A DNA stretch of 64,000 nt from Neorhizobium galegae bv. orientalis str. HAMBI 540 (GTDB taxonomy: Bacteria > Pseudomonadota > Alphaproteobacteria > Rhizobiales > Rhizobiaceae), in assembly GCF_000731315.1 (NCBI RefSeq), contig NZ_HG938353.1, positions 434,001 through 498,000 on the forward strand. The letters run 5' to 3'. The notes under the pieces are model-generated. The model searched no databases. It was not told the origin of the DNA and saw only the letters and a program-made list of their open reading frames with translations. Position 1 is the stretch's first letter. Each line of letters opens with the position of its first letter. A program made the translations under genes and the position numbers. Of the stretch, positions 2,082-46,494 are shown one piece after another.

Positions 2082-3158
2082 TCAGGCCCGAGTTTGGCGC
2101 CGATCGCGGACGGAGCGGGCAAGCTCTTCGAGCACCAGGACCGATGCCTCCCAATCGATGCAGCCGTCGGTGATGCTCTGGCCGTAAACGAGAGGTCTGC
2201 CGGGCACCAGATCCTGGCGGCCGCCGACGATATTGCTCTCGATCATCATACCCTTGATGGCCATGTTGCCGGCAGCGATCTGCGTCGCGACGTTTTTGAC
2301 GACCAGCGGCTGGTTCATCGGATCCTTGCCGCTGTTGGCATGGCTGGCATCGATGAGGATGCGCGGCTCCAAACCGCGTTTCTCCGCGTCCCCGGAAACG
2401 GCCTCGACATCGGTCGCCTCGTAGTTCGGCTGTCTTCCGCCGCGAAGGATGACGTGACAATCCTCGTTGCCGGTCGTCGTGGCGATCGCGGCCCGGCCGT
2501 CCTTGGTCACCGCCGGAAAATGGTGCGTCTGCGAGGCGGCCAGTATGGCGTCGAGCGCAACCGCGACGCCGCCATCGGTGCCGTTCTTGAAGCCGATCGG
2601 GCAGGAGAGGCCGGATGCCAGCTGGCGATGTACCTGGCTTTCGGTCGTCCGCGCCCCGATCGCGCCCCAGCTGACGAGGTCGGCAATGTATTGCGGGGTA
2701 ATCGTATCGAGGAATTCGCAGCCGGCCGGAAGGCCCGTCGCATTGATGTCGAGAAGAAGCTGCCGGGCGATCCTCAATCCCTCTTCGATGCGGTAGCTGC
2801 CATCGAGATGCGGGTCGTTCATCAGGCCCTTCCAGCCGACGGTGGTGCGCGGCTTTTCGAAATAGACGCGCATGATGATTTCGAGATCGCCACCGAAACG
2901 TCGTCGCTGTTCTTCCAGCCGGGCCGCATAGTCCCGCGCGGCAATCGGGTCATGAATGGAGCAGGGGCCGATGATGACGATCAGCCGGTCGTCCTCTCCA
3001 TGCAGTATGCGGTGGACCGTGTCACGTGTGCGAGTCACGGTCTCGGTGACCGCGTCGTTGCGCGGAATTTCGGCGATGATGTCGGCGGGGATAGTCAGCG
3101 GCGTGATCTCGACGATGCGGCGATCGTCGACAGTATTGGCGGGAGTGGCGTTCGGCAC
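2082..3158 (-). CDS. aroG: 3-deoxy-7-phosphoheptulonate (DAHP) synthase, class I (AroG/F/H type)
   Basis: Catalyses condensation of phosphoenolpyruvate and erythrose 4-phosphate, the first step of the shikimate pathway. The 358-residue length matches class I alpha enzymes. Family motifs include IIGPCSIHD, MRVYFEKPRTTVGWKG, GARTTESQVHR, GFKNGTDG and IDASHANSGKDP. The start is GTG at 3158, chosen because AGGAG lies 8 bases upstream. It is transcribed leftward behind a leader peptide and attenuator (3196-3325), which suggests control by Phe/Tyr supply. Many alphaproteobacteria use a class II enzyme, so this may be a second isozyme; the window cannot show that. Confidence 0.95.
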   Translation of the reverse strand: MPNATPANTVDDRRIVEITPLTIPADIIAEIPRNDAVTETVTRTRDTVHRILHGEDDRLIVIIGPCSIHDPIAARDYAARLEEQRRRFGGDLEIIMRVYFEKPRTTVGWKGLMNDPHLDGSYRIEEGLRIARQLLLDINATGLPAGCEFLDTITPQYIADLVSWGAIGARTTESQVHRQLASGLSCPIGFKNGTDGGVAVALDAILAASQTHHFPAVTKDGRAAIATTTGNEDCHVILRGGRQPNYEATDVEAVSGDAEKRGLEPRILIDASHANSGKDPMNQPLVVKNVATQIAAGNMAIKGMMIESNIVGGRQDLVPGRPLVYGQSITDGCIDWEASVLVLEELARSVRDRRQTRA

Positions 3159-3195
3159 GGGTATGGCTCCTGTTTGGTCCTACCGTGCGGAATTG

Positions 3196-3223
3196 AAAAA
3201 GCCGCCAGGTAGACCAGCGGCTT
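3196..3223 (-). terminator. Intrinsic terminator (arms 3 and 4) of the aroG attenuator
   Basis: On the minus strand AAGCCGC (3223-3217) pairs with GCGGCTT (3205-3199). The stem is partly extended inward by GGT/ACC, and five T residues (3200-3196) overlap and follow the 3' arm. It lies between the leader peptide stop (3251) and the aroG start (3158), where an attenuator terminator belongs. Confidence 0.85.
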
Positions 3224-3284
3224 GAGGGAATGTCGTTGCGTCGAAATCAGCTACGCACGGACCCGCATCCGCTGGGAAAAGCGG
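3214..3284 (-). promoter_or_regulatory. Alternative pairings of the aroG attenuator (arms 1:2 and 2:3)
   Basis: Arm 1 (CCGCT, 3284-3280) pairs with AGCGG in arm 2, forming a 5-bp hairpin with a 6-base loop. Arm 2 (CCAGCGG, 3275-3269) is exactly complementary to CCGCTGG (3220-3214) inside the terminator's 5' arm, so 2:3 pairing would prevent the terminator. Arm 1 overlaps the Tyr14-Arg15-Phe16 codons of the leader peptide. A ribosome stalled there for lack of charged tRNA would free arm 2 and allow read-through. The pairings are read directly; the mechanism is inferred from classical amino-acid attenuators. Confidence 0.75.
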
Positions 3285-3325
3285 TAGCTATAAAATCGCG
3301 AGGCGTAGGCGGACGTGAAAGACAT
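3251..3325 (-). CDS. aroG leader peptide (24 residues, Phe/Tyr-rich)
   Basis: A 24-codon frame with three Phe and three Tyr (Phe3, Tyr7, Phe11, Tyr12, Tyr14, Phe16), all before the pause hairpin. It ends in TAG at 3253-3251. The peptide reads MSFTSAYASRFYSYRFS and then a short basic tail. No Shine-Dalgarno sequence precedes the ATG. A promoter-like -35/-10 pair places the transcription start at or next to the A of the ATG, so it is probably a leaderless message, as reported for rhizobial trpL. Its likely role is to sense charged tRNA-Phe and tRNA-Tyr rather than to act as a protein. Confidence 0.75.
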   Translation of the reverse strand: MSFTSAYASRFYSYRFSQRMRVRA

Positions 3326-3331
3326 GGGGTT

Positions 3332-3360
3332 TCTGTATTCGCTCGATTGTGGATTGTCAC
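3332..3360 (-). promoter_or_regulatory. Predicted promoter of the aroG leader
   Basis: On the minus strand GTGACA (3360-3355), a 17-base spacer, and TACAGA (3337-3332). In alphaproteobacterial register this is CGTGAC-N17-ATACAG. Six bases separate the -10 hexamer from the leader ATG, so the message would begin at about the start codon. Confidence 0.5.
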
Positions 3361-3408
3361 GCGGAAAATTTGTGAGGTTTCCGCTCGCAGATTTTGACCG
3401 TCTGAACA

Positions 3409-3437
3409 CTTTAAACAGGAGAATCCGCTTACCATAT
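3409..3437 (+). promoter_or_regulatory. Possible heat-shock (RpoH) promoter of clpB
   Basis: CTTTAA (3409-3414), 17 bases, CCATAT (3432-3437). This resembles the sigma-32 pattern CTTGAA...CCATAT, with one mismatch in the -35 box. It would give a leader of about 100 bases before clpB. The heat-shock role of clpB makes it plausible, but the match is modest. Confidence 0.35.
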
Positions 3438-3542: not shown

Positions 3543-6143
<2,601 letters not shown>

Positions 6144-6430: not shown

Positions 6431-8098
<1,668 letters not shown>

Positions 8099-8133: not shown

Positions 8134-8430
8134 TCAGCCGATGATGCCCATGATGTCGGATTCCTTCATGATCAGAAGGTCTTCGCCATCGAGCTTGACT
8201 TCGGTGCCCGACCACTTGCCGAACAGGACGCGATCGCCAGCCTTGACGTCGAGAGCAGTGATGTTGCCCTTGTCGTCGCGGGTGCCGGTGCCGACGGCGA
8301 CGATTTCGCCTTCCTGCGGCTTTTCCTTGGCGGTATCAGGAATGATGATGCCGCCCTTGGTCTTGGCTTCGGATTCGACGCGACGAACAACGACGCGGTC
8401 ATGAAGGGGGCGGAAATTGGTGCTTGCCAT
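8134..8430 (-). CDS. groS: 10 kDa co-chaperonin GroES
   Basis: The heptameric lid of the GroEL cage. It has 98 residues and the family start [19 protein letters not shown] ([17 protein letters not shown]), the mobile-loop region ([15 protein letters not shown]) and [14 protein letters not shown]. It is the first gene of the groESL operon, with a promoter and CIRCE element immediately upstream. Confidence 0.98.
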
Positions 8431-45950: not shown

Positions 45951-46436
45951 ATGGCATTCGATGCAACATTTTTCGCATTCGTCGGCCTCGTTCTCTTCCT
46001 GGCCCTGGTCGTCTATCTGAAAGTGCCTGGCATGATGGCGAAGTCGCTCGACGAGCGCGCCGCCAACATCAGCAAGGAACTCGACGAAGCCAAGCGTCTG
46101 CGCGAGGAAGCGCAAACCCTGCTCGCCGAATACCAGCGCAAGCGCAAGGAAGCCGAAGCGGAAGCCGCACAGATCGTGGCTGTCGCCGAGCGTGAAGCAG
46201 CGGCTCTGACCGAGGAAGCTCGCCAGAAGACCGACGAATTCGTCACTCGCCGCAACGCGCTTTCCGAGCAGAAGATCAAACAGGCGGAAGCCGAAGCGAT
46301 CGGCGCCGTGCGCGCTGCCGCAGTCGACCTCGCCATCGCCGCTGCCCAGAGCGTTATCGCCCGCAAGGCCGATGCCTCCACCCAGGACACGCTCTTCAAG
46401 GACGCCGTCGGCAAGGTGCAGTCGCGTTTGAACTGA
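45951..46436 (+). CDS. atpF: ATP synthase F0 subunit b
   Basis: 161 residues. N-terminal membrane helix (FFAFVGLVLFLALVVYL) then a coiled coil that reaches the F1 delta subunit. It begins 4 bases after b' and closes the operon; the F1 genes are elsewhere, as usual in this group. Confidence 0.96.
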   Translation: MAFDATFFAFVGLVLFLALVVYLKVPGMMAKSLDERAANISKELDEAKRLREEAQTLLAEYQRKRKEAEAEAAQIVAVAEREAAALTEEARQKTDEFVTRRNALSEQKIKQAEAEAIGAVRAAAVDLAIAAAQSVIARKADASTQDTLFKDAVGKVQSRLN

Positions 46437-46455
46437 TTTCGGTCACATAAGAATT

Positions 46456-46494
46456 CAAAAAGGCCGGGCGAAAAACCCGGCCTTTTTGTTTTTG
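46456..46494 (+). terminator. Strong intrinsic terminator of the F0 operon
   Basis: AAAAAGGCCGGG...CCCGGCCTTTTT around a GCGAAAAA-type loop, followed by GTTTTT, 20 bases after the atpF stop. Symmetric A and T runs let it also stop rnhB transcripts from the other side. Confidence 0.9.

Follow-up and report, generated by a model that had tools for sequence, protein, structure and literature searches.

The class I DAHP synthase gene aroG of Neorhizobium galegae bv. orientalis HAMBI 540 is preceded by a short element that can be identified with high confidence as a ribosome-mediated transcription attenuator. Judging from the codons and RNA pairings that its relatives retain, the element very probably turns aroG on when phenylalanine or tyrosine is short. 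It lies in a window of 64,000 nucleotides, the whole stretch of DNA that was analysed (contig NZ_HG938353.1, positions 434,001 to 498,000). Comparison across relatives establishes the leader, the terminator, the 1:2 hairpin, the position of the promoter, and a near-exclusive link to aroG.

The aroG locus and the parts of the element

The aroG gene occupies 2082..3158 on the minus strand, begins with GTG, and encodes a protein of 358 amino acids that matches PF00793 and TIGR00034 (aroFGH; 516.1 bits against a cut-off of 173.2). On the other side of the element is clpB (3543..6143, plus strand), and since clpB diverges from aroG, a minus-strand terminator between them can serve only aroG-bound transcripts and no upstream gene. 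Beside clpB are groEL (6431..8074) and a small ORF labeled by eye as groES-like (8134..8430), both on the minus strand.

All parts of the element are likewise on the minus strand. A −35 element, GTGACA (3355..3360), contains the TGAC-type word of the relatives and is separated by 17 bases from a −10 element, TACAGA (3332..3337), which ends six bases before the leader ATG; relatives mostly have a CTAxAT-like −10, and the window hexamer is weak by scan. The leader ORF of 24 codons, MSFTSAYASRFYSYRFSQRMRVRA (3251..3325), is kept in relatives, is probably leaderless, and contains three Phe and three Tyr. Its central control codons are Phe11-Tyr12 (TTT TAT, 3290..3295), a choice based on codon constancy and on a modelled sequestration peak over 51 leaders. 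Arm 1, CCGCT (3280..3284), overlaps codons Tyr14, Arg15, and Phe16, and arm 2, CCAGCGG (3269..3275), can pair with either arm 1 or arm 3. Arm 3, AAGCCGCTGG (3214..3223), is common to the proposed antiterminator and the terminator, where it pairs with arm 4, CTGGCGGCTT (3199..3208). The terminator ends in a run of five T (3196..3200), the first two of which also belong to arm 4.

Two further helices would extend the antiterminator. The middle one, suggested by RNAalifold, joins GGG (3262..3264) to CCC (3226..3228); it is paired in 89.8% of cells in the Rhizobium register, and in the window the pairing, read by eye, is shifted by one base. The inner one joins TGCGT (3253..3257), which extends into the stop codon, to ACGCA (3237..3241), with 97.6% of cells paired in the alignment. 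A likely ribosome-binding site for aroG, AGGAG, is found at 3167..3171, and the terminator is separated from the aroG start by about 40 nt.

A preliminary description of the window had proposed the 24-codon frame with its aromatic residues, the four arms and T run, and the promoter with its 17-base spacer. Each of these is present as described, and the three mutually exclusive pairings, 1:2, 2:3, and 3:4, can all be drawn. The window sequence alone is nonetheless weak proof, because a terminator scan of the region returns two sites against 1.9 in shuffles and a promoter scan at 9 of 12 returns none, the 40-nt stretch between terminator and aroG included. The above-chance case is derived from the comparison across relatives.

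A leader family next to class I aroG

With the aroG protein as query, at least 563 candidate stretches encoding a relative were found in one genome collection, and the best 80, a set that leans to close relatives, were kept. By script, 72 of these 80 loci have an aromatic-rich leader that starts with ATG. A separate rule applied to the 300 nt upstream likewise accepted 72 of 80; of 1600 such regions shuffled by dinucleotide, 7.9% (lenient) or 3.1% (strict) passed. Within the best 80, the leader is present in all 71 alphaproteobacterial loci, 69 by the script plus L052, which has a lower aromatic share and covariance-model E-values of 2.3e-12 and 3.2e-11 (models R1 and R2, below), and L045, which has a GTG start and has lost its second half in an assembly gap. 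All three Dyella loci have one as well. Six betaproteobacterial loci of the same set (L057, L059, L074, L077, L078, and L079) have no convincing leader and no R1 or R2 match. In the last four of these, which have no aromatic leader, a short ORF, MPTIKMEGLTVGGTA, is found upstream of aroG.

Several peptide families can be told apart, among them MSxTSxYASRFY(S/W)YRC in Rhizobium, FYWYFSYP in Devosia, and YFWFYGYP in Dyella, and the ten peptides tried have no match in Pfam or NCBIfam. From 159 fetched aroG loci, 151 with a leader by the script’s rule and 8 without, 129 distinct leaders were obtained, L059 being a doubtful member. The rule favors aromatic residues and does not demand both Phe and Tyr, and all 129 contain both. 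The specificity for Phe and Tyr put forward in the preliminary description thus stands in part: it describes the window’s own clade, whose leaders are without Trp, whereas 80 of the 129 contain Trp too.

Two covariance models were built for genome-wide searches. R1 was trained on 49 sequences (48 of the rhizobial type, the window included, and one from Plastoroseomonas), and R2 on 21 other leaders. Over 297 genomes of the order, R1 matches in 28, and by tblastn class I aroG adjoins the match in 28 of 28. Three of these matches are not blind, namely the window’s own genome (G000), G281, which corresponds to L031 of the training set, and G023, which is closely related. In the remaining 25 genomes the leader types are outside the R1 training set; G198 among them corresponds to the Labrys record on which R2 was partly trained.

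Over 385 genomes of the class, R2 gives 21 matches in 20 genomes. Thirteen are at aroG, with E-values of 4.2e-9 or better except for the window’s own (3.1e-4). Another, in G482, lies at a contig edge, and aroG lies at the edge of another contig. The remaining seven, with E-values of 2.9e-5 or worse, are without aroG; L126 and L128-L132 (2.9e-5 to 6.8e-4), whose fetched loci contain no aroG, were set aside as resembling plain terminators by eye. A protein search of the same sample (E 1e-60 or better) finds aroG in 14 of the 385 genomes, and all 14 have an RNA match. Inside the window, R2 also matches 46365-46490 (E 3.2e-7). This second candidate was rejected because it consists of the 3′ end of an ORF (45951..46436), which we take to encode an ATP synthase b-subunit-like protein, followed by a strong terminator; it is a chance match, which gives a measure of the noise in R2 searches.

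Over 398 genomes of the phylum, 39 are matched by R2 at E 1e-5, and the match is at aroG in 37 (25 of 27 newly tested loci and 12 places already placed by tblastn). The two matches away from aroG precede genes read by eye as pheA-like and pheS-like, the former, with the leader MKIFNTRFLFGFFFIPPL, being chorismate mutase-prephenate dehydratase-like. These leaders presumably correspond to the classic pheL and pheM leaders, and the two matches are unplanned positive controls for R2. Class I DAHP synthase occurs in 225 genomes of the phylum sample. The 23 in the class comprise 22 with an R2 match and G000, and outside the class 15 of 202 have a match at aroG, where a non-match is no proof of absence. 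With the two samples joined, which overlap the protein-fetched loci at G281 and G571, a leader match accompanies class I aroG in 35 of 35 distinct alphaproteobacterial genomes. The G000 genome encodes both class I and class II DAHP synthase. Within the same genus, G295 has neither a class I match at E 1e-60 nor an R1 match, so the class I gene and its attenuator are patchy within the genus.

The promoter position is conserved with the leader. A TGAC-type word begins exactly 35 nt before the ATG in 72 of the 129 distinct leaders and 36 nt before it in 23; it falls 30-42 nt upstream of the ATG in 100 of 129, whereas control windows at 50-62, 70-82, and 90-102 nt contain it in 6 of 129, 4 of 128, and 7 of 126, respectively. 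In the 72 leaders with 35-nt spacing, A-30, T-12, and A-11 (the A of ATG being +1), which are outside the search word, are identical throughout. Such spacing is canonical for sigma-70 with transcription beginning at the A of the ATG. Shine-Dalgarno-like words precede only 7 of the 129. Transcription therefore likely begins with the A of the leader’s ATG, giving a leaderless mRNA. Among the 29 leaders without a TGAC-type word, 18 are outside the alphaproteobacteria and may perhaps not be leaderless.

RNA pairings and selection on the leader codons

Conservation in relatives had been set beforehand as the check that could overturn the reading, and relatives retain the leader, the terminator, the 1:2 hairpin, and the position of the promoter. 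Over 49 aligned leaders, 98.4% of cells in the 1:2 and 3:4 helices are paired (95.9% for 1:2 and 100% for 3:4). Two pairs of 1:2 are changed on both sides, 46:53 from UA to GU or AU and 47:52 from GC to CG or UA, the latter being unpaired in 11 of 49, and one pair of 3:4, 109:130, is changed from GC to AU in 10 sequences. Double-changed cells number 28 against 7.5 in shuffles, a count reached by none of 500, while the number of double-changed pairs, three, is equalled or exceeded in 402 of 500 shuffles. Among the 21 other leaders, five have AU instead of GC at the outermost 3:4 pair counted, which amounts to 5 cells against 1.2 in shuffles and one pair against 0.8. Few independent events underlie these counts, since the shuffles ignore relatedness. 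A hairpin followed by a T run is present in 73 of 73 leaders tested. The 1:2 hairpin over the control codons is present in the rhizobial type and varies in form in other lineages.

The 2:3 pairing is the least supported of the three. The full antiterminator (2:3 with the CGGGU:ACCCG and UGCGU:ACGCG helices) is paired in 94.6% of cells of the 49-leader alignment, a value reached by 103 of 500 shuffles, and the 2:3 core is paired in 96.2% of cells in the 21 other leaders, reached by 69 of 500. Controls with the 2:3 register slid give 26.7-75.2% or below, far under the observed pairing. Four antiterminator pairs are changed on both sides, against 1.0 in shuffles. Within 2:3 itself there is a single double-changed cell in each of the two alignments, and 53:114 is unpaired in 9 of 49 leaders. 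Support for 2:3 is thus a matter of constancy more than of covariation, and the covariation anticipated for all three pairings is seen as compensatory change in 1:2 and 3:4. RNAalifold yields 2:3 when arm 4 is omitted and folding begins near arm 2.

Single-sequence thermodynamics was rejected as proof of the switch. Compared with synonymous recodings, only 2 of 73 sequences have a stronger 2:3 duplex at p<0.05; the stall-minus-stop and stall-minus-free contrasts gain little on average and each reach significance in 4 of 37. Recoded leaders give equal 2:3 duplexes and similar stall profiles, and single-sequence energies were set aside because GC-rich synonymous recodings pair as strongly.

Selection on the codons follows the arms. 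Among 42 distinct rhizobial-type ORFs, the same-codon rate is 0.60 for codons 2-9, 0.90 for codons 10-16, and 0.91 for codons 17-24, with pN/pS, uncorrected for kinship, of 0.42, 0.89, and 1.46, respectively. The last third of the ORF therefore looks held by the RNA and the first part by the protein. Codon 17, in the loop of 1:2, serves as an internal control; TCC, TCA, TCT, and TCG alternate there, with a rate of 0.27. At stem codon 19 all 42 have CGG, and arm-1 codon 15 is CGC in 36 and CGT in 6, the pair being kept either way. Codon 11 is TTT in all 42 and codon 12 is TAT in 41, the filter having fixed residues and not codons. Over the 129 leaders, Phe is written TTT 229 times and TTC 62 times, against 40 and 654 in their aroG genes. 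Codon 13 (3287-3289 in the window) is the variable one, with TGG in 15 of the 42 ORFs, TCG in 13, TAT in 6, AGC in 4, GCG in 2, and others in 2. Since TGG and TCG differ by one base outside the arms, sensing of Trp may be gained or lost by a single change.

Proposed mechanism, alternatives, and related leaders

From these features we infer stalling, antitermination, a response to starvation, the transcript start, and a default-off state, as follows. RNA polymerase would start at the A of the leader AUG, and a ribosome would translate the leaderless mRNA. When charged tRNA-Phe or tRNA-Tyr is scarce, the ribosome would stall around Phe11-Tyr12 and cover arm 1. Arm 2 would then pair with arm 3, aided by the GGG:CCC and GCGU:ACGC helices, which would block the terminator and allow transcription of aroG. 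When charged tRNAs are ample, a ribosome at the stop codon would mask arm 2, the 3:4 helix would form, and transcription would end about 130 nt from its start. Without translation, 1:2 and 3:4 would both form, leaving the gene off by default.

A model of the stall, with a ribosome mask of 14 nt and arm-3 sequestration as the readout, is consistent with this account in the family at large. In 51 leaders of 24 codons, mean sequestration is 0.68, 0.62, and 0.60 at codons 11-13, 0.29 at the stop, and 0.23 without a ribosome. It is higher at the aromatic cluster than at the stop in 73 of 73 leaders, and higher there than in free RNA in 66 of 73. The window itself behaves differently: sequestration is 0.78 and flat over codons 1-13, 0.65 without a ribosome, and 0.30 at the stop, so the model gives the window neither a clear peak at Phe11-Tyr12 nor a clear default-off state. 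In equilibrium folding of 22 leaders with the terminator complete, terminator formation is near 0 at the aromatic cluster and near 1 past it in three (L049, L065, and L070), is low and flat in two (L061 and L064), and is mostly high and little changed in the rest; in the window, it is 0.7-0.9 throughout. Arm 3 of the window has a G at column 115, where 47 of 49 aligned leaders have an A, and the G lengthens 2:3 until it is about as strong as 3:4 (−14.8 kcal/mol for each duplex). Given the lengthened 2:3 and the T run of five, the attenuator of this strain may be leakier than those of its relatives, which fits the flat profile.

Three other explanations were weighed against ribosome-mediated attenuation. 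The ORF could be a free-standing small-protein gene whose mRNA merely ends at the hairpin, with the aroG promoter downstream. The protein-like conservation of codons 2-9 (the pN/pS of 0.42 over the 42 rhizobial-type ORFs) would suit such a gene, but in the window only about 40 nt separate the terminator from the aroG start, leader and aroG occur together in every one of the 35 alphaproteobacterial genomes, and most arm codons are nearly invariant at synonymous sites, which makes this reading very unlikely. That the leader mainly affects the translation of aroG or the stability of its RNA, rather than termination, would accommodate the weakness of the 2:3 pairing. The constant hairpin and T run, in all 73 leaders tested, and arms that do not overlap the aroG ribosome-binding site argue against it and render it highly improbable.

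A terminator with alternative arms would also suit any attenuator, such as a metabolite riboswitch, a T-box, or one governed by an RNA-binding protein, with the ORF being incidental. Yet Rfam has no match at the gathering score in the window or in 20 related loci, nor within positions 3140-3420 at E up to 1. Even divergent lineages have an aromatic ORF ahead of the arms, and Phe and Tyr occur in each of the 129 leaders, so an attenuator of this kind is extremely improbable. Ribosome-mediated attenuation remains the preferred reading. In addition to its action in cis, the element might by default release a leaderless transcript of about 130 nt and a peptide of 24 amino acids that act in trans on other mRNAs. 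This idea is prompted by the first part of the peptide, which is outside all arms, is conserved as protein, and is unneeded by cis-attenuation; by analogy with rhizobial trpL, it is possible though rather unlikely.

The mechanism itself is known. The enterobacterial leaders pheL (of pheA) and pheM (of pheST) have an aromatic leader, a terminator, and the same logic; unlike the aroG leader, they read Phe alone and have other target genes. A closer case, the aroR leader of C. glutamicum, is reportedly to be credited to Neshat and colleagues in 2014. In two sources, aroR is reported as a Phe/Tyr leader that attenuates the DAHP synthase gene aroF (PMC11802643, PMC4046766) and is also predicted from RNA-seq (PMC4046766). 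As described there, aroR resembles the aroG leader in placing aromatic codons (Phe-Tyr-Phe) before a DAHP synthase gene whose transcription rises under Phe limitation; it differs in that it belongs to another phylum and that Tyr is reported to be without effect. In Acholeplasma, uORFC-13-1 before aroF is another predicted uORF attenuator of a DAHP synthase gene, sensing Phe; as described, it is set apart by a ribosome-binding site and by its confinement to Acholeplasma and environmental sequences (PMC8632094). Attenuation of a DAHP synthase gene is therefore not without precedent, although the preliminary description knew of none for aroG.

In the same bacterial group as the aroG leader, two reports describe rhizobial trpL (rnTrpL, peTrpL) as a leaderless leader with Trp codons, a terminated small RNA, and trans-acting functions (PMC7298713, PMC10117765). 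The aroG leader shares with it a probably leaderless start and a predicted terminated RNA, whereas the Trp codons and the published trans functions belong to trpL. In the G000 genome, trpE is itself preceded by a leader, MMNSMTIANWWPARSTRP, with a terminator-like hairpin between the two (L113, G000:C1:2565300-2568800, minus strand; by eye). A 2005 survey lists putative attenuators before tyrA operons, including a DAHP synthase-tyrA operon in Vibrio and hisHb-tyrA in Agrobacterium, and states that TyrR is confined to the lower gamma group (PMC1173090). In the literature searched, of which coverage was partial, no description of this leader was found; 12 leader peptide strings gave no match, and the main text of PMC2965389 mentions neither aroG nor DAHP. 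As far as that literature extends, what is new is the family, its probably leaderless form, the mixed reading of Phe, Tyr, and Trp, and how tightly it is linked to class I aroG in alphaproteobacteria. On the comparative evidence, the aroG leader is a widespread, probably leaderless form of ribosome-mediated attenuation.

The aroG leader gives one specific way in which class I DAHP synthase could be controlled in Proteobacteria that lack TyrR. Within its family, which forms a natural series, Phe, Tyr, and often Trp are read by a single leader. Should the RNA and peptide act in trans, aromatic supply would also set the levels of other mRNAs. As a second probably leaderless rhizobial attenuator, the element provides a means of asking whether trans-acting leader RNAs and peptides are general.
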